Source: Verrucomicrobia bacterium S94
Lineage (GTDB): Bacteria > Verrucomicrobiota > Kiritimatiellia > Kiritimatiellales > Pontiellaceae
Assembly (NCBI GenBank): GCA_004299845.1
Contig: CP036201.1
Coordinates: 992,001 to 1,056,000, forward strand
Reading direction: 5' to 3'
DNA: 64,000 nt
Under the pieces are notes generated by a model. The model searched no databases. It had not been told where the DNA came from and saw only the letters and a list, made by a program, of their open reading frames with translations. Position numbers and translations under genes: made by a program. Below, piece by piece: positions 4,305 through 52,400 of the stretch. The first letter of the stretch is position 1. Every line of letters starts with the position of its first letter.

Positions 4305-5762
4305 TTAATCCCGGCTGCAGACCCACTGTACCAGGGTGCGGGCTCCGACGAGGGTGGCTCCGGGAGCCTGATACGGTTTGGCCGATTCCTCCCACGCGGT
4401 TCCGGCAATGTCGAAATGCGCCCAGGGAATGCCGTCCGGCACAAATTCCTGGAGAAATGCGGCTGCTGTGGCGGTGCCGGCGCCGCCGGATTTGCTGATG
4501 TTGGAAAGATCGGCGAAATCGGATTCCATGTCATCGGTATAGTCTTTAAAGAGTGGCAGCTGCCAGTGGCGTTCTCCGGCCTCTGCACCGTGTTTAATCA
4601 GAGTGTCGATCAGCTGCTGATCGTTCCCGAGAACGGCCGATGCCGCAGAGCCGAGGGCCACAATGCAGGCTCCGGTCAATGTAGCGAGATCAACGATCGC
4701 CTGCGGTTTGTAATCCGCAGCCAAACCTAGCGCATCCATCAGCACGAGCCGGCCTTCGGCATCGGTATTGAGGACCTCAACGGTTTTCCCCTTGTAGGCG
4801 GTTAGAATATCCCCCGGTCGGATGGCATTGGAGCCCGGCATGTTTTCGGCGGCACCCAGAATGCCGATCACGGGTGTTTTGGGTTTGATTTTCGCAATCA
4901 TCTGCATGGCGGTCAGTACAGCCATGCCGCCGCATTTATCGTAGCGCATCCAGCCCATGCCTTTTCCGGGTTTCAGCGAAATGCCGCCGGAATCGAAAGT
5001 GAGGGTTTTGCCGACCAGTACAATGGGGCGGACCTTTGTGTCCGTGCCTTTGTGCTCGAGTATGATCATGCGGGGTTCTTTGGCGCTGCCCTGGGAAACG
5101 CCGAGGATTCCGCCGCATCCTTTTTTCTCAAGCGCGGTTTTATTCATGATCCGGCAGTTGAGGCCGGTTTCTTCGGCCATTTTACGGGCCCAGTCGGCAA
5201 TGGATTCGGGGGTGGCCTGATTGCCGGGCATGTTGGCGATATCGGCCGTTGAAACAAGTGCTTCGCCGTGGGCTTGTGCTTTTTTGATGGCTGCACGCGA
5301 TTTCACTTTTCCGCAGAAGGTCAGCGAACAGGCCGGTTTTTTTTCTGCATCCGATTTGTTGATGTCATAGGTGTAGGTTCCCCAGGCGGCACCGCGGCCG
5401 GCGAGGAGATGGTAGCCGGCTTCGGAAACTCCCTTGAGTCGGATGGATGAAGCCATGGCAAAGGTTTTTAACCCGGCGGTTTTCCCTGTGCGTACGGCGG
5501 CGGCAGCGGCCTGTTCGAGCAGGGCGTTATGAAAATGTTCGGGTTCTCCGAGGCCGGTGACGATGATCTGTTTTCCGTCCATCGGAAAAACGGCGGTCTG
5601 TCCGGCTTTTCCTTTGAAGGCGGAGGTTTTAACGAGGGCGTCAACCTGCTTTGCAAGTGCGGTATTCCCGGCGGGAAGCAGGTTTTCCGATCCCTGGAAA
5701 AAAAGGATGAGTGCGTCTGTTCTGATGTCGGCCGGTGAGGCTGAGGATACTGAAATTTTCAT
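4305..5762 (-). CDS. pepA: leucyl aminopeptidase, M17 family
   Basis: Cytosolic di-zinc or di-manganese aminopeptidase of 485 residues that removes N-terminal amino acids from peptides. The C-terminal catalytic domain has the diagnostic NTDAEGRLVLMDAL signature, and before it GKTLTFDSGGISLKPG and YDKCGGMAVL, which carry the metal-binding Lys and Asp residues. The N-terminal third is the variable M17 macro-like domain. Some PepA proteins also bind DNA in Xer recombination; xerD is in the window but 38 kb away, so no link is claimed. First gene of a run of three closely spaced minus-strand genes. Confidence 0.95.
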   Translation of the reverse strand: MKISVSSASPADIRTDALILFFQGSENLLPAGNTALAKQVDALVKTSAFKGKAGQTAVFPMDGKQIIVTGLGEPEHFHNALLEQAAAAAVRTGKTAGLKTFAMASSIRLKGVSEAGYHLLAGRGAAWGTYTYDINKSDAEKKPACSLTFCGKVKSRAAIKKAQAHGEALVSTADIANMPGNQATPESIADWARKMAEETGLNCRIMNKTALEKKGCGGILGVSQGSAKEPRMIILEHKGTDTKVRPIVLVGKTLTFDSGGISLKPGKGMGWMRYDKCGGMAVLTAMQMIAKIKPKTPVIGILGAAENMPGSNAIRPGDILTAYKGKTVEVLNTDAEGRLVLMDALGLAADYKPQAIVDLATLTGACIVALGSAASAVLGNDQQLIDTLIKHGAEAGERHWQLPLFKDYTDDMESDFADLSNISKSGGAGTATAAAFLQEFVPDGIPWAHFDIAGTAWEESAKPYQAPGATLVGARTLVQWVCSRD

Positions 5763-5766
5763 AGAT

Positions 5767-6147
5767 CTATTGGACTCCTGCAGGAAGTTTTACATGGGGG
5801 TTGGCGGGGCGGTTGTTGACGGCGAAGCCGGCGCGTGCAATGGCTTCTTCAAAATTCATTTTCCGGATGGTGCTGCTCTGGTATTTCACGGTCATGGTCC
5901 GTGCCGGCAGATCGACGCTGCTGCTGACATAGCCCGGAATGGCTTTGAGTCTGTTTTGGATGTATGCTGCCGCAGCGGATGTTTTCATATCGGGTATATG
6001 ATAATCGGCAGAGACAATTTCCTTGCGAAAGCACCAGAACATGAAGGTCGGCTTGGAGTTCTGTTCTGTTAATCGGGCTTCATCGTCTTTACAGCCGCTC
6101 AGCATTAGCAGTGCGAGGGTTGAAAAAAATAGAGCTTTGCATTTCAT
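5767..6147 (-). CDS. lipoprotein with HMA-like fold lacking CxxC
   Basis: A 126-residue protein with a type II signal: a basic start, a hydrophobic core and lipobox LMLSGC with the cysteine at about residue 19. The mature part looks like a heavy-metal-associated ferredoxin-like fold: an amphipathic helix (AAAAYIQNRLKAIPGYVSS), the strand pair SSVDLPARTMTVKY, and FEEAIARAGF, which matches the second helix of HMA domains. The usual metal-binding CxxC is absent, so metal binding is unlikely by the standard mode. It lies four bases upstream of pepA. The function is unknown; the fold is an inference from pattern only. Confidence 0.55.
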   Translation of the reverse strand: MKCKALFFSTLALLMLSGCKDDEARLTEQNSKPTFMFWCFRKEIVSADYHIPDMKTSAAAAYIQNRLKAIPGYVSSSVDLPARTMTVKYQSSTIRKMNFEEAIARAGFAVNNRPANPHVKLPAGVQ

Positions 6148-37925: not shown

Positions 37926-40022
37926 ATGATGACTGAATCTGAAAACTTCAACTGTACAAACCGCCTGATCAATGAAAAGAGTCCGTATCTGCTGCAGCAT
38001 GCGCATAATCCGGTGGACTGGTATCCGTGGGGGGATGAGGCGTTCCAGACGGCGCAGCGTGAAGATAAACCCATCTTTCTTTCGATCGGCTATGCTACCT
38101 GTCACTGGTGTCATGTGATGGAACATGAATCCTTCGAAAACGAAGAAATCGCGCGCCTGCTCAATGAAGCGTTTGTCTGCATCAAAGTGGACCGCGAGGA
38201 GCGGCCGGATATCGACAATATTTATATGACCGTCTGCCAGATGATGACGGGGCAGGGCGGATGGCCGCTGACGATAATTATGACGCCGGACAGGGAGCCG
38301 TTTCATGCGGCGACCTATATTCCGCCGGAGCAGCGGCACGGTCGGATCGGGATGAAACAGCTGGTGCAGCGGATTTCCGGTGTCTGGAACAATCAGCGGG
38401 AAAAAGTCCTCAAATCCGCCGGCCGGATCTTGGATGTGCTGATTGAACAGCAACGCTCCGGCAGGGGGGAGGATCTTGATCCGGGACTGCTGGAATCAGG
38501 GTTTAATGAGTTGATGAATCAGTACGACAAACTGTTCGGCGGGTTTGGTCTTCAGCCTAAGTTTCCTTCGCCGCACCGACTGATTTTTCTGCTGCGGCAG
38601 GGGAAAGCAGAGGGTGTGGCCGCTGTTGAACATACGCTTTCGGCGATGCGCAAAGGCGGGGTTTTTGATCAGATCGGGTTTGGATTTCATCGTTATTCAA
38701 CGGATCGAAAATGGCTGCTGCCGCATTTTGAAAAGATGCTTTACGATCAGGCGCTGCTGGCTTTTGCCTATTGCGAAGCCTATGAAATGACCGGGAAAAA
38801 ACTCTATAGTCAGGTGACTGAAGAGCTTCTTGAATATGTGATGCGCGATATGACGGTGCCCGACGAAGAGTCCCGTCATTCGGGCGGCGGATTTTATTCG
38901 GCGGAGGATGCAGACTCTGAAGGGGAAGAGGGATTGTTTTATATCTGGTCGGCGGAGGAGATGAAATCGGTGCTTGGTGCCGATTATGATTTTGTTTCCA
39001 GGCATTGGAATGTGCAGGATGGCGGAAATTTCCGTGATGAAGCTTCAGGCCGGCAGAGCCCCTGCAATATTCCGTATTTGTCTGAATGGTGCTCCGATGA
39101 AGATGCTGTGCGGATTTCCGAGCTTCGGAAAAAGCTGTTTGCGGTCCGGGAAAAGCGGGTGCATCCATTAAAGGATACCAAAGTGCTGGCGGACTGGAAC
39201 GGACTGATGATAGCGGCTTTTGCTAAAGCTGGGCGTGCTCTCGGTGATGAGAAATATACTGTCGCGGCGGAGCGCGCGGCAGCTTTTGTGGTTGCGGAAA
39301 TGCAGGATGAAGATGGAAGGCTGCGGCATCGCTGGCGGGAGGGGCATACGGCGGTTTCTGGGCAGTTGGAGGATTATGCCTTTATGATTTTCGGCCTGCT
39401 GGAGCTCTATGAAAGCACACTGGACTTTCAATATCTGAAAAAGGCAATGAACTATCAGGCGATTCTTGATGAACACTTTGCTGATGATGCCGGCGGTGGA
39501 TATTTTATGACGTCTGACGACGCGGAAGCGCTGATTGTGCGACCGAAGGAGTTGTATGACGGGGCGATTCCTTCCGGGAATTCCGTGCAGTTTTATAATC
39601 TGCTGAAACTGGCGCGAATGACCGGTAATCCGGAGCTGGATAAGCGGGCGGCCGAGACCGGCAGAGCGTTCAGTGGGATGATTGAGCGTTCTCCGGCCGG
39701 TTTTGCCCAGGCTCTGACTGCGTTGCAGTTTTCGGTTGGAGAAACGGTTGAAATTGTGGTGATCGGGGATAAGGAAGAGGCCCGGCCGATGATTGAATAC
39801 CTGCATTCCGTTTATCATCCGGGCAAGGTGATTCTGCTCAAGGATGCAGAACATGCGGATCAGCTCGCCGTGCTGGCTCCGTTCACCGAAGAGCAGCAGA
39901 TGATCGATGGAAAACCGACGGTGTATCTCTGCCGCAATTTTTCCTGCGAAAAGCCGATTAACAGGCTTGAGGAGCTGAAGGAGCGGTTTACAGCGAAGCG
40001 TAGGAATCCTCGTAAGTCATAA
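37926..40022 (+). CDS. DUF255/YyaL thioredoxin-like protein with six-hairpin domain
   Basis: 698 residues. The N-terminal thioredoxin-like domain has [25 protein letters not shown] and the CHWC motif at 59-62. The rest is an (alpha/alpha)6 barrel, as in N-acylglucosamine epimerase-like proteins ([61 protein letters not shown]). The family (human SPATA20, bacterial YyaL) is widespread but the reaction is not known. Two ATG codons in a row offer two starts. Its last 35 bases overlap the end of the convergent anti-sigma gene. Confidence 0.93.
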
Positions 40023-40464
40023 GGAAACTGAACGCGAGATCGTCTTCGGAAAAACCATCATATACGATGCTCGAAACCCGGGTTTCGGTATCCATCAGCT
40101 GGGTTTCCGTCATGATCAGTTCCATACCCACTTTGTCGGGGGAATAGTGCCCGAACGTGAGACCCAGTACAATGAGCAGTGAGGCGGCCAGTGGAATGAG
40201 CTGCCGCATTCCAAACATCGGAAGCCGTAATTTTTTCTTTTCAGGCACATTTTTCCGCGCCTCCCGCAGCACATTCTGTATTACTGTGGCTGACGGTTCC
40301 TCTTCCAGACTGTGGAATCGGGGTTTTGATTCGATCAGGGCAAACTGGAATTCCCGGCACGCTTCGCAGTCGTGCAGATGTGCCGCGAGCTCATTGGCCC
40401 GTTTCGCCGACAGTTCTCCGGTATCCTGTAACAGTATTGCTTTTTCAGCATCGTGGCACTTCAT
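39988..40464 (-). CDS. anti-sigma factor, zinc-finger type
   Basis: 158 residues. The N-terminal part holds [11 protein letters not shown] (H-x3-C-x2-C), which with [10 protein letters not shown] forms the zinc-binding anti-sigma domain. One membrane helix follows ([18 protein letters not shown], about residue 90-107), then a short periplasmic tail. It would hold the neighbouring ECF sigma factor at the membrane until a signal leads to release. Its ATG overlaps the stop of the sigma gene by four bases, the usual arrangement. Confidence 0.85.
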
Positions 40465-41051
40465 GAGATAGCCTCCTGCAGTTCTTCATATTCATCCTTT
40501 AATATAGAACGCAATTTGCCCAATGCATATTGCATCCGGGCTAAACAGGTATTGATCGAGCATTTCTGGAGTTTGGCAATTTCCTTGAATGACATGTTTC
40601 CATACATTCTGAGCATAAAGACTTCTTTCTGTTCTGCGGAGAGTGTACTTACCGCTTCATCAATCTGAACGCCCAGCATGGTTCCTCCGGATTCCTCCGC
40701 GGGGTTGATTCCCGGTGCGGCGAGGCGATCCTCCAGCGTTGAATCTCCATCGTCTCCACCGATTCCGCTCTGCATGGAAATATTTTTTCTGCTGCGCCGA
40801 GCCCGATCGATCACCAGATTATGGGCAATGCGAAACAGCCAGTTGAGAAAATTCTTATGTTTGAATTTATGCACGTTTTTAAGGGCCCGGAACCAGGTTT
40901 CCTGAAAGATCTCGTCGGCATCCTCGCGGCCTTCGGTCATTTTCAGAATAAATGAATAAAGCGGACGTTTGTATTTTTCCACCAGCGGTGCCAGCGCATC
41001 CGCGTCGCCGCCGAGGTAGGCATTAATACAATCAGTATCCGAAATATCCAT
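40461..41051 (-). CDS. ECF sigma factor (RpoE-like)
   Basis: 196 residues with region 2 (LVEKYKRPLYSFILKMTEGREDADEIFQETWFRALKN, then FLNWLFRIAHNLVIDRAR) and region 4 (LSAEQKEVFMLRMYGNMSFKEIAKLQKCSINTCLARMQYALGKLR). The spacer between them is about 45 residues. Controlled by the anti-sigma factor encoded directly downstream. The target genes are unknown; the adjacent type II secretion genes are plausible but this is only location. Confidence 0.93.
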   Translation of the reverse strand: MDISDTDCINAYLGGDADALAPLVEKYKRPLYSFILKMTEGREDADEIFQETWFRALKNVHKFKHKNFLNWLFRIAHNLVIDRARRSRKNISMQSGIGGDDGDSTLEDRLAAPGINPAEESGGTMLGVQIDEAVSTLSAEQKEVFMLRMYGNMSFKEIAKLQKCSINTCLARMQYALGKLRSILKDEYEELQEAIS

Positions 41052-41115
41052 AATGCGTAGTACTACGTGTTGCGTTTTTTAGCAAATCCGACCAATAAAC
41101 GGCCGGTCCGGGAAT

Positions 41116-41697
41116 CTATTGCAGGAATTCCGAAGTAATTTTTCCGGAGATGGGATCATTTTCCATGCGGATGGCGACGCCGCGCTTGTCTTCAATCTCG
41201 ATTTCAAACTTTTCGCACTGTCCATTCGGGAAGAAGCGAATCAGGTAGAGATCAGGGAATTCATCGTCTTCTTCCGTCCACTCCTTGTCGAATTCACGTA
41301 TGGTGAGACCTTCGGGGAGAATTTTATGGACTTCCTTTTCAATGCCGGCGGTTTCGCCGGATGTTCCGTCATCGTCTTTATAGCCCAGCCTTTTCAGCAC
41401 ATCCTGATCAATCTCGCCGTCGGCCGAATTGGTCTGAACCTGTTCGCCGCCCAGAAAAATTTCCATGGTTTCGTGATTCAGGGCAACCGTCATTACCTCT
41501 TCCCGCATGATCGCCATGCTTCGTGCATAACGACTCATGCGGCTGATGGTACGGGCCGTCGTTTTCAGGCCGGCTCCTTTGAGGGTTCCTGAAAAATAAG
41601 GAAGAGAAATTCCTGTAATGATAGCGACGATGACAATAACGAGCATCACCTCCATGAGGGTGAATGCCCGTCGGTTAAACTGGGGATGCTCCGGCAA
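41116..41697 (-). CDS. gspH: type II secretion minor pseudopilin (GspH-like)
   Basis: 193 residues with a type III (prepilin) signal RRAFTLMEVMLVIVIVAIITGISLP. The residue before the cleavage site is Ala, where Gly is usual. The periplasmic part (about 165 residues) fits GspH. The apparent start is TTG at 41697 with only a weak GGGA upstream; no ATG or GTG lies before the pilin signal. It follows gspG by five bases, so the start may be driven by coupling. Confidence 0.8.
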   Translation of the reverse strand: MPEHPQFNRRAFTLMEVMLVIVIVAIITGISLPYFSGTLKGAGLKTTARTISRMSRYARSMAIMREEVMTVALNHETMEIFLGGEQVQTNSADGEIDQDVLKRLGYKDDDGTSGETAGIEKEVHKILPEGLTIREFDKEWTEEDDEFPDLYLIRFFPNGQCEKFEIEIEDKRGVAIRMENDPISGKITSEFLQ

Positions 41698-41702
41698 AGG
41701 AG

Positions 41703-42104
41703 TTAATCCCAGTTATTTGCAGTGGCCTTTCCATCTTCCGACGTACAGGAGATGTCGAAAGTATGGGTGTTGTGAGTGCCGGGGGCCTGGTAGACAAACG
41801 GTTTTCCCCAGGGATCCAGCGGAATTTTTTTCTTCTGGAGAAAGGGGCCGCCTTTGGATTCGTCGAGCAACGCGTCCAGACTGCTGGGATAGGTTCCGTT
41901 GATGATTTCGTATTGCTGAACGGCCATTGAGAGTGTTGCGATGGTCGATTTCGCCGCATTCAGGTCGGCCTGCTGTTTTTTACCTCCGATGTTCAGGCCG
42001 TTCATGGTGACCCCGGCAATAATACCGAGAATAACCACAACAAGAATTACTTCAATCAGGGTGAATCCTGATTTTTTACTCAGATGCTTTTTGGTTTCTT
42101 CCAT
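41703..42104 (-). CDS. gspG: type II secretion major pseudopilin GspG
   Basis: About 133 residues. The signal KKSGFTLIEVILVVVILGIIAG has the canonical Gly and +5 Glu. The C-terminal domain has the GspG calcium-loop pattern: LLDESKGGPFLQKKKIPLDPWGKPFVYQAPG. The Met at 42104 is favoured because GGAG lies six bases upstream; the Met at 42110 is possible. It would form the periplasmic pseudopilus that pushes substrates through an outer-membrane secretin. It lies between gspF and gspH. Confidence 0.9.
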   Translation of the reverse strand: MEETKKHLSKKSGFTLIEVILVVVILGIIAGVTMNGLNIGGKKQQADLNAAKSTIATLSMAVQQYEIINGTYPSSLDALLDESKGGPFLQKKKIPLDPWGKPFVYQAPGTHNTHTFDISCTSEDGKATANNWD

Positions 42105-42127
42105 TTTCATCTCCGTACTCCTTTTAA

Positions 42128-43378
42128 TCAAAATCCGCTCAGTGTATCCGTGAGTGTTAATACGGGCAGCATGAGACAGATGGCCATGCCGCCGACGATT
42201 GCCGCAACCGCTACAATTAATAGCGGTTCCAGTACGGTTGTACACGTTTTAACCAGCCGGTCCAGTTCCGAGTCATACCGTCGTGTAATATGGGAAAGTG
42301 CATTCGGCATATCCCCGGTTTCCTCGCCGACCGCCAGCATATCGGTCAGAAGGCGCGGGAAAATTTTCCCCTGGGCCAGTGGTTTGGAAATGGTGGCCCC
42401 ATCGGTGACTTTATCGCGGGCTCGCCCCACTTCGTCGGCAATAACGACATTGCCGATTGTTTTCTGAACAATTCCCATGGCCGGCAGTACCGCCACGCCG
42501 TTGTGCAGCAGGGTACCGAATGTTCGGGAAAAATGGGCGTAGGCGTTGGCGCGGATGATGGAGCCCATAATCGGTATTCGCAGCTGCATCCGGTGCCATA
42601 GTGTTTTGCCCTGCATGGTTTTCAGCCAGCGTTTGAGGAAAATAATCAGCAGTGCAACAACGCCCAGCACAACCAGGCCGTATTTCAGGGTGAAATTGCT
42701 CATGGTCATAAGAATCTGGGTTGGGCGGGGGAGCTCGGCTCCCATCTCCTCAAAGGTGTTTGCAAAGCTCGGTACAATATAGATCATCAGCCCGATGACC
42801 GCGAGTCCGCCGATAGTCATGACGATGGCCGGATAGATCAGCGCGGAGATGACTTTTCCCCGGGCTTCGTGTACACGCTCGTAATGAACGCAGATATTTT
42901 CCAATGCGCCCGGAAGGTTGCCTGATGCCTCGCCGGCGCGGACGAGATTGACATAAAGAGCGGAAAAGGTTTCGGGATACATTTCCAGCGCATCGGAAAG
43001 AGAGGTGCCCTGTACAATTTCATCGCGCAGTGTTTCCACAATCCGACCGACTGCACTCTCATCTTTTCGGGCGGCAAGCGTATGTAAAGCCCGTCCAATG
43101 GTCATACCGGAGGCAACCAGATCCGAAAGTTCGCGGGAAAAGAGCAGCAGATCCTGCAGTTTCATACGGGGTTTACGTTTGAAACCCAGCTGGAAGTTGA
43201 GACCTTTCCGGTTTTCGCTGCTTTCCTGACGATGTGTTTTGGTGGTTTCCGTAATGGAAACGGGAATATGCCCCATCGATTCAATGACACGTACCGCACC
43301 GGAGCGGTCGTTTGATTCCACCACACCTTCTACGCGTTCACCGCCTTTTGAACGGCCGATATATTTAAAATGTGCCAT
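42128..43378 (-). CDS. gspF: type II secretion inner membrane protein GspF
   Basis: 416 residues with the usual two T2SSF domains: FSRELSDLVASGMTIGRALHTLA and the later FSRTFGTLLHNGVAVLPAMGIV, each followed by helices such as VMTIGGLAVIGLMIYIVPSFANTFEEMG and LIVAVAAIVGGMAICLMLPVL. Three membrane segments. It is the platform protein of the type II secretion machine. The ATPase (GspE) and secretin (GspD) genes are not in this window, so the system must be split or continue elsewhere. Confidence 0.93.
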   Translation of the reverse strand: MAHFKYIGRSKGGERVEGVVESNDRSGAVRVIESMGHIPVSITETTKTHRQESSENRKGLNFQLGFKRKPRMKLQDLLLFSRELSDLVASGMTIGRALHTLAARKDESAVGRIVETLRDEIVQGTSLSDALEMYPETFSALYVNLVRAGEASGNLPGALENICVHYERVHEARGKVISALIYPAIVMTIGGLAVIGLMIYIVPSFANTFEEMGAELPRPTQILMTMSNFTLKYGLVVLGVVALLIIFLKRWLKTMQGKTLWHRMQLRIPIMGSIIRANAYAHFSRTFGTLLHNGVAVLPAMGIVQKTIGNVVIADEVGRARDKVTDGATISKPLAQGKIFPRLLTDMLAVGEETGDMPNALSHITRRYDSELDRLVKTCTTVLEPLLIVAVAAIVGGMAICLMLPVLTLTDTLSGF

Positions 43379-43505
43379 AGCAAGTTCTGATTATTGGACA
43401 ACCCGAGGATTCTTCTGCAACAACTCGAAAAGAATAGAGAATGAATCGATTTTTGAAAGCCGCAAATGCAGTGGATGCACGATGATGAACGGAGATCGCA
43501 CCGCT

Positions 43506-44393
43506 TCAGGCCCGCGGATGAAACTGTTCGTGAACCGATTTAAGACGGTTGGGGTCAACATGGGTGTAGATCTGGGTGGTGGCGATGTCGGCATGACCGA
43601 GCATTTCCTGAATAACGCGCAGAGGAGCCCCGTTCTGCAGCAGATGACTGGCAAAAGAGTGTCGCAACGTATGCGGGGTGACATTTTTCATGATGCCGGC
43701 GTCTTTGGTGTATTTCTTGATGATCTGCCAGATGCGCTGCCGGCAGAGGGCGGTTTCCCGGCGCGAAACGAAAACATGCTGAAGATGCGGATTGTCGCAC
43801 AGTATCGGTCGGACTTCCTCGAGATAGCAGCGGAGAATATTGGCGGAATTTTCGGCAATCGGAATAACCCGTTCTTTACGCCCTTTGCCGATGACGCGAA
43901 TATAGCCGTCGTCCAGATGCAGGCTGGAAAGTGAAAGATTGGCCAGTTCCGAAACGCGCAGCCCGGAAGCATAAAACATTTCCAGCATCGCCCGATCCCT
44001 TACGCCCAGTGGTTTACGCATGTCAGGGGCGTTTAAAAGCAGTTCCACTTCCTTTTCCGATAGCGTATCCGGCAGGATTTTCCAGAGCCTGGGAGAATCC
44101 ATGGTGTCCGTAATATTTTTATCCAGCAGTCCTTCCTGTTGGAGATACCGGAAAAAAACCTTAATGGAAACCAGATGGCGCGAAATGGAGTTGGTCGACA
44201 TTCCTTTGGCCTTCATGGCCATGAGATGATCAAGCACCTGTTTGCGGCTGACCTGATTCAGCGAGGTAACCCCTTTTCGGGTAAGAAAATCAAGAAACTG
44301 ACTGATGTCATCCGCATAGGCTTTGCGCGTATTGATGCTCAGCCCGCGTTCCAGCGAAATATAATCCAGGAAACTTTCCAGAAAGATGTTCAT
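43506..44393 (-). CDS. xerD: tyrosine recombinase XerD
   Basis: 295 residues. The N-terminal SAM-like domain (FLDYISLERGLSINTRKAYADDISQFLDFL) is followed by the catalytic domain with the first Arg in ASGLRVSELANL, the Lys in VIGKGRKERVIP, HTLRHSFASHLL (H-x2-R), HADIATTQIY with the His and the nucleophilic Tyr. It is full length and matches XerD in every conserved spot. It resolves chromosome dimers at dif with XerC. No dif-like site was recognised here. Confidence 0.95.
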   Translation of the reverse strand: MNIFLESFLDYISLERGLSINTRKAYADDISQFLDFLTRKGVTSLNQVSRKQVLDHLMAMKAKGMSTNSISRHLVSIKVFFRYLQQEGLLDKNITDTMDSPRLWKILPDTLSEKEVELLLNAPDMRKPLGVRDRAMLEMFYASGLRVSELANLSLSSLHLDDGYIRVIGKGRKERVIPIAENSANILRCYLEEVRPILCDNPHLQHVFVSRRETALCRQRIWQIIKKYTKDAGIMKNVTPHTLRHSFASHLLQNGAPLRVIQEMLGHADIATTQIYTHVDPNRLKSVHEQFHPRA

Positions 44394-44422
44394 AGTGCAT
44401 AAAATAGTACACTAAAGTCAGA

Positions 44423-44464
44423 GCAACAAGGTTCGCGATGAAATGAAGTGCTGAACCTTGTTGC
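44423..44464. repeat. perfect 12-bp inverted repeat between xerD and the PASTA/HhH gene
   Basis: GCAACAAGGTTC (44423-44434) and GAACCTTGTTGC (44453-44464) can form a stem with an 18-base loop. It follows the PASTA/HhH gene (minus strand) and may end its transcript, although no T-run follows. It could also be a protein-binding site. Confidence 0.5.
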
Positions 44465-44495
44465 CCGGCATTTGGAAAAGGCTGACGGAAAGAGA

Positions 44496-45428
44496 TCAGT
44501 TTGTGCTGATTCTGATCCACTCTTCCACGTCTTTCTGAGTTACATTGAAAGCGCGGGGTGTTTGAATTCTTTTTTCCTGAATGGCCTTTTTACTCAAGCG
44601 CAGAAGTTTTTCCGGATCAGTTTTCGACAATTCCCCGAGGGAGCGAATGCCTACCCCCTTAACGAGCAGTTCGACCACTTCATCCTTAAGGCCAAGCAGG
44701 GTCATTTTTGACATGAGATTGGCCATATCGATGAAGCCTTGGGCCCGCTGCTCATTCGTTTGCAGAATTTTTGCCAGCCGGTCGGCTTTGGTCAGGCTGA
44801 GTTCTCCGACAGAGCGAATGCCATTACCTGCCAGTGTTTTTCCGGTTTTTTCCCCGATCCCGTCGATTTCAGTCACCGGCGTACTTCCTAAATTAACCCA
44901 GAGGTCGATCGTCTTATCTTTCCGGGGTTTTGCTGTCGGTGTGGGTTTCTGCTTTAGAATCAGTCCAAAGCTGTCCCGTCCAGCGGCATCAACATCCTTT
45001 TTAGCTGCTGCATGAGCAGTATAGCTCCAGCCGTTTTTTTTGAGTACGGAAACCGCTTCCTGAAGGGAAAGTCCTTTCAGATCAGGAACTTTGACAGTTT
45101 CCTGCGGGGGGGTGGTGGGGCTGACGGGAACCGGTTCTTCTTCGGGATTGCCGACCACACTGGTAAATCCAATTTTCAGTGTGGAGATCATGGAGGGATT
45201 TATTTCGTTCCGGGCGATATCTTCTGTCGTTAACATACGCACCATGGGAGTGCCGCGGGTATCTGAATAAACTACACCCTTGAGTTCAAGCTCCGCGTTA
45301 CTGAGCATCATATTTGCAGGAACATTGATTTCTCCAAGCATGGATCGTTGAGCGGATGTGAATGATTCGCCAACGGAACGAAGTAATGCATTGAGATCCA
45401 TTTCCTGCGTATCTTTTTTAGTTGTCAT
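44496..45428 (-). CDS. PASTA plus helix-hairpin-helix protein with DUF2589-like start
   Basis: About 310 residues without a signal peptide or membrane segment. Residues 1-110: a helix (LNALLRSVGESFTSAQRSML) and a strand region (NMMLSNAELELKGVV) that resembles the matching parts of the next two genes. Residues 125-200: a PASTA-like unit (VKVPDLKGLSLQEAVSVLKKNGWSY). Residues 200-310: two helix-hairpin-helix units (EIDGIGEKTGKTLAGNGI and VVELLVKGVGIRSLGEL), often DNA- or protein-binding. The combination is unusual: PASTA is normally extracellular. The longer frame to 45488 has no better start. Last gene of a four-gene minus-strand cluster. Confidence 0.75.
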   Translation of the reverse strand: MTTKKDTQEMDLNALLRSVGESFTSAQRSMLGEINVPANMMLSNAELELKGVVYSDTRGTPMVRMLTTEDIARNEINPSMISTLKIGFTSVVGNPEEEPVPVSPTTPPQETVKVPDLKGLSLQEAVSVLKKNGWSYTAHAAAKKDVDAAGRDSFGLILKQKPTPTAKPRKDKTIDLWVNLGSTPVTEIDGIGEKTGKTLAGNGIRSVGELSLTKADRLAKILQTNEQRAQGFIDMANLMSKMTLLGLKDEVVELLVKGVGIRSLGELSKTDPEKLLRLSKKAIQEKRIQTPRAFNVTQKDVEEWIRISTN

Positions 45429-45456
45429 TTTTAAATTATTCCTGCGCGTTTTCTGT

Positions 45457-45999
45457 TTATTCGGTTTCTGTTGAGCGGGAAGGCTCAATACGAAGCGGAG
45501 AAGGGACCGGGACCATGGTGGCGGTCAGTTTGGAGGCGAGCTTAACCTCTTTACCGATTTTGCGCTCAGCCTGAACATTGTGTGTGTTGGCAAACAGGAC
45601 TTTCCGGCCCTTGGTTTCCGATTTTTCGGTGGTGTCCTCCATTATTTCCAGATCCATGGAGACCTCAATTGTGGCTTCGGAAAAACGGTAAAATGTCGGC
45701 TGCATGCCCAGCTCCAGCAGGGAAACGCTTTGAGGCGGGGCACTTTCATAGGAAACCTTCCCGTCAGCATCAATTGTTTCTTTAATTTCGCGAACCAGTT
45801 CAACTTTGGTTTCGGCCAGCTCCTGAAGCATTTCAGCGGATGCCCGATCCAGATCCAGCTGTGCATCGGCAACGCCTTCAGCCATCATGCGAATTAAATC
45901 AGCAAAAGATATTCTTGGTGTTTCTGTAACTTTTATTTCTGCCGGAACAATCGGAGTGCGGAACGCTCGGACAGTGTTTTTTTTCGTATATTGGGGCAT
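45457..45999 (-). CDS. DUF2589-like protein A
   Basis: 180 residues, no signal peptide. A helical start (ISFADLIRMMAEGVADAQLDLDRAS) is followed by LAETKVELV and DADGKVSYES, then the core strand SLLELGMQPTFYRFSEATIEVSMDLEI, then a conserved RKIGKEVKL and a C-terminal VPVPSPLRIEPS. The layout matches DUF2589, a family of unknown function. It shares the FYxFSEATIEV core with the gene just upstream. GAGGAG lies 10 bases before the ATG at 45999; the frame to 46020 is less likely. Twenty-eight bases separate it from the PASTA/HhH gene. Confidence 0.78.
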   Translation of the reverse strand: MPQYTKKNTVRAFRTPIVPAEIKVTETPRISFADLIRMMAEGVADAQLDLDRASAEMLQELAETKVELVREIKETIDADGKVSYESAPPQSVSLLELGMQPTFYRFSEATIEVSMDLEIMEDTTEKSETKGRKVLFANTHNVQAERKIGKEVKLASKLTATMVPVPSPLRIEPSRSTETE

Positions 46000-46119
46000 A
46001 GCTTTCTCTCCTCGGGGCATAAGATTTTAAGAAAATTAAATAATCGGAAACGGCATCCGATTTGTTGATATCAGAGCCGTTTCCGAAAACCTTTAATCGG
46101 GCTTGTTCGTGAGCCGAGG

Positions 46120-46644
46120 TTATTCCGAATTGTCGGCAGGACGGTTATCAACCAGTATCAGCTCCGGTTCAAGACGGGGCGGAGGGGGAACCGGTGTCAT
46201 TTTGGTGACCAGACGGCTGGTACCATGAACCTCTTTACCGAATTTCCGGTTGTGAGAAACATCAACACTCACAGAAGCGCTCCAGCAGCCGAAGCCGACT
46301 TTGGCTTTGGCACTGACGTCAACATTCGTTTCACGTGAAGTGGTGGTTTTGATGTCCATCGTAACCTCAATGGTTGCTTCGGAGAACTGATAAAATGTTG
46401 GCATCAGGCCCACCTGCAGCAACGAAACATCAACCGGATCCGCATTCGTGAATTCCACGCTGCCGTCCGCATTGATCGTTTGAGTAACCGCCATAACCAG
46501 CGGTACTTCCGTGTCTGCCAGAAGTTGAGCGGTTTCCACTGAATTTTCATCCAGGGCGCGCTGAGCTTCAGCAATACCGAGTCCGAGCTTCATCACCATC
46601 TCGGGCAGAGGTACCGCGAGTAATTCATGTCCTACACTTGCCAT
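46120..46644 (-). CDS. DUF2589-like protein B, paralogue of A
   Basis: 174 residues. The same order of parts as protein A: VPLPEMVMKLGLGIAEAQRALDENS, LLADTEVPLV, INADGSVEF, SLLQVGLMPTFYQFSEATIEVTMDI, RKFGKEVHG and VPPPPRLEPE. Between the core strand and the RKFGKEV segment it has a Gly/Ser-rich strand pair (KVGFGCWSASVSVDVSH). Good ribosome binding site (AAGGAG, 7 bases). Two adjacent paralogues suggest a hetero-oligomer. I know of no defined function. Confidence 0.78.
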   Translation of the reverse strand: MASVGHELLAVPLPEMVMKLGLGIAEAQRALDENSVETAQLLADTEVPLVMAVTQTINADGSVEFTNADPVDVSLLQVGLMPTFYQFSEATIEVTMDIKTTTSRETNVDVSAKAKVGFGCWSASVSVDVSHNRKFGKEVHGTSRLVTKMTPVPPPPRLEPELILVDNRPADNSE

Positions 46645-46705
46645 GTGCTTGCTCCTTCTTTTGTTGGTTTTAATTAAGTGTCTCTGCCGCGCAGGTCTCG
46701 TGCGG

Positions 46706-47023
46706 TCAGTCTGGCGCCGTTCTGCCGCCAGTCGTCAGCATTTGAGCCATTCTGGAGAGACGTTCCGTGTCTACATTCACAGGGCCAATATGCGAAATTC
46801 CGATATCGTTTTTCAGTGCCAGGTACGTTTCAAAAGGAAGAAGGGCCAGAAGTTTATTGGAGCTCAGTTGCATCACTGTTTTTCCGCCGATTTTTTCCGG
46901 AAGCCCTTTGGGGAGTATATTTTTCCCGATCATCAGATACATTCCGCTTGCCGGGCCGGCCATACTGATTTCAGCCCCCATTGCATCAGAAAACTTAGAG
47001 TGTCCAACGCTCCCTCTTTTCAT
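46706..47023 (-). CDS. small orphan protein, first gene of the cluster
   Basis: 105 residues that I do not recognise. It has alternating glycine-rich and hydrophobic parts (MGAEISMAGPASGMYLMIGKNILP, GGKTVMQLSSNKLLALLPFE) and a C-terminal helix (DTERLSRMAQMLTTGG). No signal peptide. The ribosome binding site is weak. The even use of codons and the location 60 bases before protein B support a real gene. It is the first gene of the four-gene cluster. Confidence 0.6.
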   Translation of the reverse strand: MKRGSVGHSKFSDAMGAEISMAGPASGMYLMIGKNILPKGLPEKIGGKTVMQLSSNKLLALLPFETYLALKNDIGISHIGPVNVDTERLSRMAQMLTTGGRTAPD

Positions 47024-47116
47024 AATTCACGATTCTGAGTTTATGAAATTAAATAACAAGATAAAATTACAACTTTTAAAGTCATGTTTGATTTGTTGGG
47101 GTTGATGGTAAAAAAG

Positions 47117-47149
47117 AAAAGGGCCGCGTTAAAAAACACGGCCCTTTTT
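47117..47149. terminator. bidirectional terminator between purC and the DUF2589-like cluster
   Basis: GGGCCG and CGGCCC form the core of a hairpin extended by A- and T-rich arms, with one inner mismatch. On the minus strand it ends in TTTTCTTTTTT and lies 27 bases after the purC stop. Confidence 0.85.
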
Positions 47150-47175
47150 GATGGGTGTAAGATGCGGTAAAAAAT

Positions 47176-48069
47176 TTACACGTTCAGCTCTTCGCCGGTA
47201 AGCAGTTTGTAGGCTTCCAGATATTTATCGCGGCTCTTGAGCAGGATTTCTTCCGGAATCGTCGGGCCGGGAGGGGTTTTATCCCAGTCCAGTGTTTCAA
47301 GGTAATCACGGACAAACTGTTTGTCGAATGAGAGCGGGGAAGATCCCGGTTTATAGGAATCCGCCGGCCAGAAGCGGGAGCTGTCGGGCGTCAGTACTTC
47401 GTCAATCAGGATCAGTTCGCCATTCACCATACCGAATTCAAACTTGGTGTCGGCGATGATGATGCCTTTGGTCAGTGCATAATCCGCTGCGGTTTTATAG
47501 AGGTTTAGGCTAACGTCTTTCAGCTTATTGCCCAGCTCTTCGCCGACAATCTCCTTCATCTGTTCAAAGGAGATGTTTTCGTCGTGGCCTTCGTCAGCTT
47601 TGGTGGACGGGGTGAAAATCGGTTCATCGAGTTTGCCGGCCATTTCATAACCGGGGCGCAGCGGCATACCGCCGATGGTACCGGATTTCTGGTATTCCTT
47701 CCAGCCGGAGCCGATCAGATAGCCGCGAACAATACACTCAACAGGAAGCAGTTCAGCTTTTTTAACCAGCATGGATCGACCTTTCAGCAGTTCTTTGTGC
47801 TCCTGCAGTTCCGGCGGAAAGTCCTCCACGTCGGTAGAGATCATGTGGTTTTTCACGACGTCACCGGTACGGTCGAACCAGAATTTGGAAATCATATTCA
47901 GGACACGGCCTTTATCCGGAATGCCGTCGGGCATGACCACGTCAAATGCGGAAATACGGTCGGAGGCAACAAACAGATACTGATCGCCGAGGTCATAAAC
48001 CTCGCGGACTTTGCCCGATTTAAATTTTTCAATGCCTGGAAGTTCAATTTTCGTAGCAGCTGGGGTCAT
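47176..48069 (-). CDS. purC: SAICAR synthetase
   Basis: Purine synthesis: CAIR + aspartate + ATP gives SAICAR. 297 residues. GKVREVYDLGDQYLFVASDRISAFDVVMPDGIPDKGRVL is the ATP-binding start; later VECIVRGYLIGSGWKEY and the typical DTKFEFG and LIDEVLTPDSSRFW. The Met at 48069 has GGAGAATCATC directly before it and matches the usual start; a frame to 48138 adds an Arg-rich stretch without support. Single gene with its own terminator; no other pur genes are nearby. Confidence 0.96.
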   Translation of the reverse strand: MTPAATKIELPGIEKFKSGKVREVYDLGDQYLFVASDRISAFDVVMPDGIPDKGRVLNMISKFWFDRTGDVVKNHMISTDVEDFPPELQEHKELLKGRSMLVKKAELLPVECIVRGYLIGSGWKEYQKSGTIGGMPLRPGYEMAGKLDEPIFTPSTKADEGHDENISFEQMKEIVGEELGNKLKDVSLNLYKTAADYALTKGIIIADTKFEFGMVNGELILIDEVLTPDSSRFWPADSYKPGSSPLSFDKQFVRDYLETLDWDKTPPGPTIPEEILLKSRDKYLEAYKLLTGEELNV

Positions 48070-48274
48070 GATGATTCTCCATGAAGTTATGGTTCTTAAA
48101 ACGCGGCGTACTTTACGAATCCGGATCGGGGCGTGCAATCAAAACCCGACTATATGAGTAACAAATACGCATTTTGACGCAAAAAAGCGGTCCTTATTTA
48201 TTTTACCAAATCGAGGTTTGGCGGCTCTCTGTGCGAGGCGTATATTGTTTTGAATTGATTTTCAGGGAAATGCA

Positions 48275-49114
48275 ATGATTGACCTACACACACATTCAGT
48301 CTATTCCGACGGTACGAATACGCCGTCAGAACTGATAAAAATGGCGGATGAGCGAGGGCTTTCCGCTATGGCGCTGACCGACCATGATACGGTCGGCGGG
48401 CTCGAACCGCTGTTCGAAGCTGCTGCGGATTCCGGTGTGGAGGCGATTCCGGGAATCGAACTCAGTGCCGAATGTGCAAAGGGAACAATGCATATTCTCG
48501 GCTATTTTTTCGACCACACGAATTCGATGCTGCTCGAAAAGATCGATACGGTTCGGGAAGGCCGCGAAGAGCGGAATCATGAAATTCTCAAGCGCCTGAA
48601 CAAACTCGGTTATCGCCTTATGTGGTCCGATGTCGAAAAGCAGGCCGGGGCTGATGTGGTGGGGCGGCCGCATTTTGCCGAAGCTCTGGTGCAGCGTGGA
48701 CTGGTGAAAAACCGTAAATCAGCCTTTGAACTTTTACTGGCCAAAGGGCGTCCCGCTTATGCCGAACGCTACCGCTATACCGGCCGCGAATGTGTTGAAC
48801 TGATCCGCAATGCCGGAGGAATTCCGGTGCTGGCACATCCGGCCACCATTTATCTGCCCGATGATCAGCTCCGAGGTTTGATTATGGGACTGACGGAAGC
48901 CGGACTGGGCGGACTTGAAGTCTACTATGCGGAACATCACCCGGAAAATATCAGGAAATTTAAACGCTGGGCCGATGAACTGGGGCTCATCAGCACCGGC
49001 GGTACCGATTATCACGGCTCCAATACGCCCGATCTGAAACTTGGAACCGGGTTTGGTCAGCTTCGCGTTCCCGATGAGGCACTGGAACAGTTGAAAACAG
49101 CAGCCGGTAAATAG
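48275..49114 (+). CDS. PHP domain phosphoesterase (YciV/TrpH/RNase AM type)
   Basis: 279 residues with the PHP metal-binding series: DLHTHSVYSDGT, ALTDHDTVGG, IPGIELSAE, HILGYFFD, LAHPATIY, GTDYHGSN. The short insert between the fourth and fifth motifs fits the 3',5'-nucleoside bisphosphate phosphatase / 5'-3' exoribonuclease group. Cytosolic. It stands alone. Confidence 0.92.
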   Translation: MIDLHTHSVYSDGTNTPSELIKMADERGLSAMALTDHDTVGGLEPLFEAAADSGVEAIPGIELSAECAKGTMHILGYFFDHTNSMLLEKIDTVREGREERNHEILKRLNKLGYRLMWSDVEKQAGADVVGRPHFAEALVQRGLVKNRKSAFELLLAKGRPAYAERYRYTGRECVELIRNAGGIPVLAHPATIYLPDDQLRGLIMGLTEAGLGGLEVYYAEHHPENIRKFKRWADELGLISTGGTDYHGSNTPDLKLGTGFGQLRVPDEALEQLKTAAGK

Positions 49115-49444
49115 TCGTTGACGGAGCATCCGCGACCTGCAGTGACAGGGGCTCCTGCCGGTGATCATCACACTTACCGATACATTAATCGGTCATCCGT
49201 AACGGTTTTAAAATAGAGTTTTTCCACTGAATCGGGGAACTCAGCGATCGACTGTTGCGGAGAGGTTTCAAAATGGCGCAGGGATTAAACGCGATCGGGT
49301 TCTCTTTTTCCCGGGCATTATACGGTTGGATCAACGTTTCAGCGGGTAATCCGTAGCGTGTAAATTATATTTTTTTTAAGTTTAAGCTTTTATATACATT
49401 ACTTTTCTTTTTTATAATCCCTTCATTTAAACAGAGGGGAATTT
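49115..49444 (+). promoter_or_regulatory. 330-bp leader of the secreted hydrolase, with candidate promoter
   Basis: No gene. The last 90 bases are very AT-rich. TATAAT lies at 49413-49418, 26 bases before the ATG, with TTTATA (49389-49394, 18-base spacing) as a possible -35. GAGGGG lies 6 bases before the ATG at 49445. The upstream part (49150-49330) has no recognised element. Confidence 0.45.
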
Positions 49445-52400
49445 ATGAAGAAAAGGGAATGGGGCGTGCCGGCTTTTCTGGCGGCGTTTTGTTTTCTGAG
49501 CATGCCGGAATCCGTGTTTACACAGGAGTTCCGGATCAGCGGATACGATGGAGATTCGATTACGGTTGAATATCCTCCGTGTTTTGACGGGGCCTACCTT
49601 TTTGTCGAGCAGGGGACCAATCTTGTCGATCAGAACTGGGAAACCGTGGATTATACGCAGGTCAGCCTGGCGGAGGAGGATGCGGTATCCTTTGCCGTGT
49701 CTTCGACCGGCCGGACAGCAGCTGCCACGGGAGCGATTTCAGCCGCCGAATTGCCGGAGACCGGCGGAGAGCATGAAAGCGGATTTGTCCGGATCAGTGC
49801 CGTCTCTTTCGTGGATTCCGACGGGGACGGTCTCGACAATGTCACGGAATATGCACTGAACCTGAACCCGTATGAAAAGGATGCCCCGCAGGTTTCACTG
49901 CCCGAAGATGACGGCGATCCCCGGCCGGTGCCGGGATCTGTCGACAGTGCTCCGGGCGACTGGAATACGCCGCCGTCTGCAGTGTACCGGAATGCAGGAT
50001 CTGCCTATGAGCTGATCAATCATCTGATTCTGGCGCTGGAAGGAACCAACGGAACGTTCACGGCTCAGACATCTGCTGCAGCGCTGGGCGGCTGGATCGA
50101 ACAGCAGTGCGGGAGCTGGTATCCGCCGCTGGAGAATGATCGGTTTCCGATTGTGTACGGCGGCCGTTTTTTCAGGATGGAGACCAATGGATTTGAATGG
50201 GCCGGAAAGGAGCATATTTATCCACTGGCTTTTTATGATTATGCGGCATCCGGCCATGCGGATGCCGTCCCTCAGTTTATTAATCATCTGGTCCGTTTGT
50301 CCGAAACAGACCGGCCGGGACTGGCGGTACTGCCGGACGGTTCCTCCGTTCTGGTCAATGCGGAAAATCCGTGGACTCCGGAAAAGGTGAATGCCTGTCT
50401 GCAGCAGTTCAGAACGGTGGTCTGCCGGCTGCAGTCGGTAGATGAAAACGGCGGTTTTGCGGCATCAGACAGTAACGCCATGGCCAGAGCAACGTGGAAT
50501 TACTGGGGCACCTATAATGCCGCAACGGAATATTATCATCAGCCGCAGCAGCTGATCCGCTCTGAGTGGAAATATAATGCTGAACAGGGGGAGTGGGAGC
50601 AGGTTCCGAATGAAGACGGCGCCATTGTCACCATTTTCGCTCAGAATCAGCAGTTTGAATTTACGGGAAATCTGCGCCGGTATGGCTTCGGCAGAACGGT
50701 CCACCGCGGTTATATGAAACTGATGGATGAGGTGGAATGGCAGATTGGATATCCCGATGAAACCAGTGCATATAAACGCAGGTATGACCATCTCCCGGAA
50801 GGATTCCGGACCAACGGAATTTTCCGGACATTCACCGCCTCGGATCATGAAACCGCCTGGCTGGCCGCCGCGGCAACAAACTACAGCGCCGAAGCGTTCT
50901 GGGACTGGACGGCGCCGGATCTGACGGGCGGTACAGCGTGGACCGACCGGACGCTGGTTTATGACCGGGGCGGTTATATTGCGGACGGCTATGTGTATTC
51001 CGGATACTATCCCTCCTATGTCTCTCCCGATGACTATACCGTTCTTTCAACCCTGTCGCCCCCGGTCTTTACCGAACAGTCGCTCATTATGGATATGGAC
51101 CGCAACGGCGCCATTGATGCCGACGACTTCTATCGTGTGGACGCATCCCATCCCTACCGCTTCTGGATGAATGAAGACGGTAACGATGCGGCCTATCCTG
51201 AAGCCGATATGGAGGATTTCTTTCCTGCCATGTTCAAAGGAACCGGTTCAGCCCAGACCTTTAAACTGTCAGCGAATATCGACATGGATTATATTCAAAC
51301 CACCATGTTAACCAACAACACCCAGGCGTATTTACATGATATTGATCTGGCGCAGTCGCTGGCCGGTCAGATCCGGTCCCTGGATGCCGGCGATCAGAGC
51401 CCGGCTGTTTTTTCAGAAAACGAGATCGTTCTGCTGGCGGCATCTGAAGTAAACACTAATGCACAGATCTATGTCCACACGCTTGAAAACGGGGTGGAGA
51501 TCTCAATTTCCACCAACTATTTCTCCTTCAGCTCCGTCACCAACATGTACCGCATCAAAAACCTGCGGGCCGGCGGTGTCAGCTTCCTCGATCCACCTTC
51601 CAACTGGCCCGACGAACTCACCAACGACAGGGACTTCGTTTTTGTGCATGGGTATAACGTGAAAGATGATTTCTCGTTACTCAAGTTTGATGAATTGGAT
51701 ACGCCCGCTCGTTTATGGCATCGTGAGATTTTTAAACGCCTGTGGCATGCCGGATTAAATGCTCGGTACAACGGGGTCATTTGGGACGGAACTCCCAGTT
51801 CGTATGCCGGTAAAAAACACTATCATCACTCTGTTATCAATGCTTTTGCCACCGCTCCGTTGCTGGCAACTTATTTAAATACATTCGATGATCCTGTGGT
51901 GATGGCGCACAGCTTAGGCAATATGGTCGTGGGGTCGGCGATTGTGGACTATAATGCGGATGTTTATCAGTATTATGCCATGGATGCTGCGGTTGCGCTG
52001 GAAGCCTACGGCGATGTTGCTCCGACGAATCACATGATTCCTGACTCACTGTTTGCTGTTCAGAATGATGGGTGGCTTTGTTTTAAGGGATATAGCTGGA
52101 CCAATTACCCTTCGGAAACCTACGCCTCTGAATACTATCGCCTGTTTAAGGATAGTGGCGATTCGCGCACCAACCTCACCTGGCGGCATCGCTTTGCCGA
52201 TATCCAGACCAAAACCGACGTCTTCAATTTTTATTCCAGTACGGAAGATATTTTGCGAGTGGATGATAAAATTGACATGCTGGATATCATCGATATTGAC
52301 GCGGATCTGAAGATGAGTTTTCCGCCGGTCGATTTTGATTTCTCTACTCCGTACGCGTGGCAGCTGCAGGAAATGTATAAAGGGCTGGATCAAATTCCGA

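Follow-up and report, generated by a model that had tools for sequence, protein, structure and literature searches.

The window examined here, a 64,000-nt stretch of the Verrucomicrobia bacterium S94 genome (a single 4.1-Mb contig), contains an operon, S1-B-A-H, that encodes a conserved, uncharacterised set of proteins occurring in both bacteria and archaea. We found no functionally known system with the composition of this operon, although its individual parts come from families that are known, in some cases only distantly. The initial annotation knew of no described system of this kind, and none was found in the open literature; subscription papers lay outside our search. In that literature, DUF2589 receives a single passing mention and Trypco2 is treated only as a predicted adaptor, and the work on PASTA with helix-hairpin-helix (HhH) domains, on haloarchaea and on Haloarcula gives, by its titles and abstracts, no account of the operon or of a cytosolic archaeal PASTA-HhH protein. 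We tentatively propose that the operon is horizontally mobile and builds a self-assembling cytosolic protein structure; this is a serious possibility rather than an established one, as the assembly is inferred and no function has been shown. The operon also provides a testable way into the DUF2589-like proteins.

The cassette in the window and its distribution

The ORF list and the sequence confirmed four ORFs on the minus strand at 44496-47023 (Table 1). The four-gene cluster of the initial annotation is thus real in the window, although the usual bacterial operon has five genes and the window lacks C1. The listed H ORF of 330 aa begins at TTG; the ATG at 45428, which gives 310 aa, agrees with the family. 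The start of A is probably at 45999, on a better ribosome site. None of S1, B, A and H has a signal peptide, as had been claimed, or a transmembrane segment (maximum 19-residue hydropathy, 0.78-1.28). The PASTA and HhH regions attributed to H were recovered by Pfam, with matches to PF03793 (E 1e-10), PF14229 (DUF4332; E 4.9e-9) and PF14520 (HHH_5; E 8.5e-8).

Table 1. Features of the cassette, in window coordinates
Feature	Position	Strand	Basis
Whole cassette, between purC and Xer-type recombinase gene	44394..47175	-	Absent at purC/xer junction of six same-genus genomes
S1, small alpha/beta-looking protein, 105 aa, opens operon	46706..47023	-	Orthologues clustered with B
B, helix and long beta-hairpin protein, 174 aa, most conserved subunit	46120..46644	-	Homology and AlphaFold2
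Tip of B hairpin, residues 104-132, amphipathic arm 1 and aromatic turn	46249..46335	-	Periodicity analysis
A, paralogue of B, 187 aa (180 aa from probable start 45999)	45457..46020	-	Identity to B
H, N-terminal unit, PASTA and HhH/DUF4332, 310 aa, closes operon	44496..45428	-	Pfam, AlphaFold2, BLASTP
Hn unit of H, residues 1-93, same superfamily as A and B by profile	45150..45428	-	Profile comparison
PASTA domain of H, residues 112-179	44892..45095	-	PF03793 E 1e-10, above cut-off
Tandem HhH/DUF4332 region of H, residues 190-306	44511..44861	-	PF14229, PF14520, structural matches
Terminator-like hairpin at operon end	44421..44466	-	-24.2 kcal/mol, z -4.6
Terminator-like hairpin 3' of purC, separating purC from cassette, then T-rich run	47117..47148	-	-23 kcal/mol, z -7.4

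By eye, the flanks of the cassette contain purC, an Xer-type recombinase gene, type II secretion genes and PHP genes, and the cassette is bounded by terminator-like hairpins. The purC and xer genes are adjacent, 68-163 bp apart, in six same-genus genomes; in the window genome they are separated by 2.8 kb with four genes. The closest relative (G035) has a PurC that is 97% identical. A single-protein search detected B in 1 of 289 genomes of the phylum sample, namely the window genome, and in none of the seven listed same-genus genomes. A single insertion is a simpler explanation than repeated losses. No tRNA gene was found in window positions 40000-50000, giving no sign of tRNA-linked insertion.

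A scan of GTDB representative contigs with the A/B alignment recovered 37 loci from Chlorobiota, Gemmatimonadota, Thermodesulfobacteriota, Pseudomonadota, Chloroflexota, Kiritimatiellota, Cyanobacteriota, Bacillota, Nitrospirota and Acidobacteriota and from a haloarchaeon. Family profiles indicated that most of the complete bacterial loci have the order S1-B-A-Hn-C1 on one strand; two loci (L005 and L007) have the order B-S1-A-Hn-C1. In the five-gene loci A adjoins B or sits one gene away, and S1 orthologues lie in the same cluster as B in 32 bacterial and archaeal loci. The initial annotation would have been refuted had the genes not been clustered elsewhere; they are clustered in more than 30 bacterial and 20 archaeal loci. 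Beyond the five genes, no flanking gene was generally conserved, and the TPR genes next to the Nitrospira and Pseudanabaena loci are too common to count as partners.

A plasmid of Sphaerotilus sulfidivorans carries a five-gene version of the operon with a B protein 77% identical to that of the window. In the B tree the window locus lies closest to L010, from a Pontiellaceae MAG (Kiritimatiellota); both the window and L010 lack C1 and instead have H, in which PASTA-HhH replaces the small terminal domain of Hn (Hc). On this tree Chloroflexota and Pseudomonadota each require five label changes, a pattern consistent with transfer, to which MAG binning errors may contribute. Named isolates, which are unaffected by binning, also carry the operon (Pelovirga, Rhodoferax, Sphaerotilus, on its plasmid, Sandarakinorhabdus, Parerythrobacter and the haloarchaeon Salinigranum), and the operon is open to study in these cultured strains. 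A phage origin of B was rejected, as no relative was found in IMG/VR contigs or phage records.

Among the sampled Halobacteria, 27 of 391 genomes were positive, compared with 1 of 400 Chloroflexota genomes. In twenty haloarchaeal regions, B and A are usually accompanied by a further short paralogue (T), S1 and a protein with a coiled coil. All ten of the coiled-coil proteins tested contained PASTA, and eight contained HhH (PASTA E 9.1e-11 in L035). BLASTP aligned H with a haloarchaeal protein (L094) collinearly over residues 13-239 (22% identity; E 2e-6 in a small set), a span that includes the unit, PASTA and HhH. Because haloarchaeal operons encode a collinear protein with a coiled coil, the unit, PASTA and HhH, the PASTA-HhH protein of the window is a recurrent part of the system and not an oddity.

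Several individual loci showed features of their own. In one haloarchaeon (L109:4231-4906), the B coding sequence is spread across several frames and is either a pseudogene or an assembly error. Deeper-branching B-like genes (L038:3043-4701, L039:3841-5985 and L040 at about 4400-5963) adjoin genes for proteins with a long linker that is disordered or charged; these proteins end in a glycosyl-hydrolase-5-like part, with a Cellulase match at E 1e-11 in L039 and no Pfam match in L038. In a Pseudanabaena MAG (L014:3831-7126), the genes that follow the operon encode a vWA-looking protein and a protein of 728 aa whose C-terminal domain matches OmpA (E 2e-14). The C1 protein of an Acidobacteria locus (L032:7589-9199) contains an InlB-type B-repeat (E 4e-13), a repeat usually seen outside the cell, and has no apparent signal peptide. 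A BFVD model (A0A516MP19) resembles B (E 1.3e-5), and DUF2589 occurs in one unannotated 4-kb phage record.

The shared unit and the conservation of B

A and B are 43% identical (E 2e-29 in a whole-genome search), and hhalign aligned their profiles at 100% (E 2e-48), which substantiates the likeness noticed in the initial annotation. The archaeal paralogue T matched both B and A at 98% and Hn at 88.6%, and C1h matched Hn at 91.5%. The direct values were lower for Hn-C1c (53%), B-Hn (35%) and A-Hn (23%), and the 98% obtained for C1h-C1c is inflated by the coiled coil in both profiles. Reversed-profile controls reached at most 10% for all pairs and at most about 3% for B-Hn, A-Hn, T-B, T-A and T-Hn. 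Plain BLAST detected no similarity between the N-terminus of H and A or B. The initial annotation had claimed that the three N-termini are kin and would have failed had profile comparison found them unrelated; by this comparison Hn is related to A and B, with a weak direct link and the main link via T, and the Hn unit of H and C1 join A and B through archaeal intermediates. Since the hhalign values are high relative to the reversed controls, B, A, T, Hn and C1 are assigned at the profile level to one superfamily, which has a distant relation to DUF2589 and a possible one to Trypco2. Profile comparison revealed no relation of S1 to the B, A, T, Hn or C1 units, and Hc is unrelated to PASTA (0.2%). 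Hn is usually a stand-alone protein of about 160 aa, and C1, at 170-540 aa, has a coiled coil and the conserved unit at its end.

Searches of S1, B and A against Pfam, NCBIfam and PHROGs gave no assignment, and no enzyme domains were found in the core proteins. A match of A to the sliding-clamp model NF002219 was dismissed as chance (19.5 bits against a cut-off of 293). AlphaFold2 predicted for B a helix (residues 13-44) and two strands (84-107 and 130-152), each of more than 20 residues, at pLDDT 70 and pTM 0.48, leaving the hairpin tip unresolved at low confidence. A PDB fold search with this model gave no significant match (Foldseek E 0.5 or more); many of the weak matches are builders of rings, tubes or pores with long hairpins, including some membrane pore stems. 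All 31 B sequences, unlike A, show amphipathicity at beta periodicity in arm 1 of the tip; that of arm 2 is not significant. The model of H was better resolved (pLDDT 84), and its HhH part gave structural matches over residues 181-246 to Pol theta, RadA and the NusA C-terminal HhH (Z 9-9.8); this part filled the fold-search list, which says little about the N-terminal unit and PASTA.

B shares 57-84% identity with its counterparts from most of the bacterial loci and from haloarchaeon L035. Between loci, B had a median identity of 72% and A one of 53%, with Hn, S1 and C1 at about 34%; in 431 of 432 genome pairs, B showed higher conservation than Hn and S1. The loci were recruited via conserved B peptides, which biases B conservation upward; the dN/dS values of eight close pairs, which are much less affected, lay at 0.02-0.11 for B and reached at most 0.31 in the other genes. 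These values indicate that all of the operon genes are under selection, strongest on B. Because the genes occur together, the contrast between B and its partners is most simply interpreted as a difference in constraint rather than in transfer date. Slow evolution of this kind is expected for a polymer-forming subunit, although it could alternatively reflect one critical binding surface.

Proposed assembly and alternative roles

If the operon does build a cytosolic structure, the long beta-hairpins and N-terminal helices of B and A would mediate their co-assembly into a ring, tube or filament. Copies of Hn and C1 would enter this assembly through the shared unit and carry variable outward parts (a coiled coil, PASTA, tandem HhH or the Hc domain); in the window, H would merge the role of Hn with PASTA-HhH and replace C1. 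S1 might control or cap the assembly, which is a guess. The ligand of the PASTA and HhH parts would be an intracellular protein or nucleic acid and not peptidoglycan.

We favor self-assembly because the five-gene order is conserved across most bacterial loci, the unit is shared and B is the most constrained protein; because the B model has a long amphipathic hairpin and its weak matches include builders of rings, tubes and pores; because the core proteins lack an enzyme domain; and because PASTA and HhH lie on one chain in peptidoglycan-free haloarchaea. Mobility is favored because the operon is spread across phyla and forms a clean cassette in the window genome. Against assembly, no oligomer has been predicted or seen, and the predicted structure of B is of middling quality without a significant match to a known structure. 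A fuller version of the proposal, which is possible but somewhat less likely than not, is that a new intracellular ring, tube or filament is common to, and passed between, bacteria and archaea, is made from four diverged DUF2589-like copies, and bears a cytosolic PASTA/HhH decoration in haloarchaea and Kiritimatiellota that binds a target other than peptidoglycan.

The operon could instead be an intracellular conflict (defense) module in which a Trypco2-type adaptor unit detects infection and brings in an effector encoded elsewhere. The patchy, horizontally spread distribution fits such a role, as do weak matches to PF19631 (Trypco2), the best of which were E 0.012 among A/B members and E 0.011 among Hn members, both below the cut-off, and E 0.044 in the window B (14.5 bits; cut-off, 24.2); hhalign aligned Hn with Trypco2 at 20%. 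Trypco2, a predicted adaptor, has been described alongside trypsin-like peptidases as part of predicted conflict systems (PMC7159879, PMC10907252). However, no trypsin-like peptidase was found in the flanks of the cassette (by eye) or in the annotated plasmid locus, and neither the operon nor any conserved neighbor was seen to encode a nuclease, peptidase, TIR or NTPase. PADLOC was uninformative, giving no core defense protein match beyond cross-hits: H matched PD-T4-6 via PASTA only, and the matches of C1 were to coiled coils. B is also strongly conserved rather than fast-evolving, unlike typical sensors, and we consider a defense role unlikely.

Insertion of the amphipathic hairpin of B into a membrane as a pore or anchor, under the control of S1, H or A, is more improbable still. 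The consistent amphipathicity of arm 1, the aromatic, glycine-rich turn of B, both lacking in A, and the pore stems among the weak Foldseek matches point in this direction; however, those matches are not significant, the tip is of low confidence, arm 2 does not reach significance for this property, and comparable hairpins also form tubes that are soluble. A simple killer is also at odds with strong purifying selection on a set that is freely transferred. Least plausible is a nucleoid- or transcription-associated scaffold organized by a B/A core with tandem HhH bound to DNA or the transcription machinery, since the resemblance of the H HhH to the NusA C-terminal, RadA/Rad51 N-terminal and polymerase HhH (Z 7.5-9.8), the HhH of the haloarchaeal proteins and the coiled coils of C1 are offset by the absence of HhH from most bacterial members (it occurs in only 2 of 24 Hn proteins) and by the fact that the ligand of NusA/RadA-type HhH is often protein rather than DNA.

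Comparison with known systems

The initial annotation called the paralogues DUF2589-like, which holds for a distant relation and not for Pfam membership. The B profile aligned with that of DUF2589 at 96% (E 4e-9, 149 columns; reversed control, 7%) and matched a plasmid DUF2589 protein at E 3.6e-5. PF11655 itself matched neither A nor B of the window, nor any other protein of the window genome, and was matched by 2 of 53 A/B-family members (E down to 4e-4). A and B are thus classed, on profile evidence, as distant relatives of DUF2589 that fall below the Pfam cut-off. The uncharacterised DUF2589 proteins resemble B and A in having a helix followed by a strand motif and a last strand that enclose a variable insert, and their genes, like those of the units of the operon, are also found as adjacent paralogues. 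However, the DUF2589 loci have other partners, such as a conserved protein of about 90 aa, and profiles of S1, Hn and C1 detected nothing at two plasmid DUF2589 loci. Three DUF2589 loci, on two unrelated plasmids and a bacterial genome (L056:2248-2499, L069:5930-6193 and L070:5920-6195), have in common a third small gene of about 84-92 aa that bears '...RGSILGLEKNFSLFNLGEHQVVLQWMVYHIGF.RKP..L', which suggests a separate conserved DUF2589 operon; a muramidase-looking gene lies near the locus in L069. In another arrangement (L048:814-3140 and its neighbors L049 and L050), two DUF2589 genes flank a third unit-like gene behind a LytTR-looking regulator; it occurs in 8 of 145 genomes of the phylum sample, all from a single genus that we guess to be Akkermansia.

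Trypco2 is similar in being a short helix and beta-hairpin unit; it differs in being encoded by a stand-alone gene beside peptidases or NTPases of predicted conflict systems, neighbors that we did not notice by the operon. S1 resembles the subtilisin propeptide/inhibitor I9 in the spacing of a GG-V motif, a hydrophobic strand and an L..h.gI..V motif; however, its best PDB profile match, the Tk-subtilisin propeptide, is not significant (E 1.3), and no subtilase was noticed beside the operon. Pfam searches of 27 S1 members gave only isolated matches at E 0.06-0.17, none of them to I9, and the single I9 match in the host genomes is, as far as seen, unrelated to the operon. In a cyanobacterial locus (L055:28-1947), a subtilase gene, a small I9-looking gene and a Trypco2 gene stand in a row by eye; S1 may be the counterpart of this small gene.

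PASTA kinases and penicillin-binding proteins have in common with H and the haloarchaeal proteins a genuine PASTA domain, usually read as a peptidoglycan sensor. H differs from them in lacking a kinase or transpeptidase domain (no Pfam match), a signal peptide and a membrane helix. The PASTA of the operon also differs in being present in haloarchaea, which have no peptidoglycan, and there it must therefore bind something else. Because a conserved PASTA protein sits in peptidoglycan-free archaea, a PASTA match alone should not be read as evidence of cell-wall binding.
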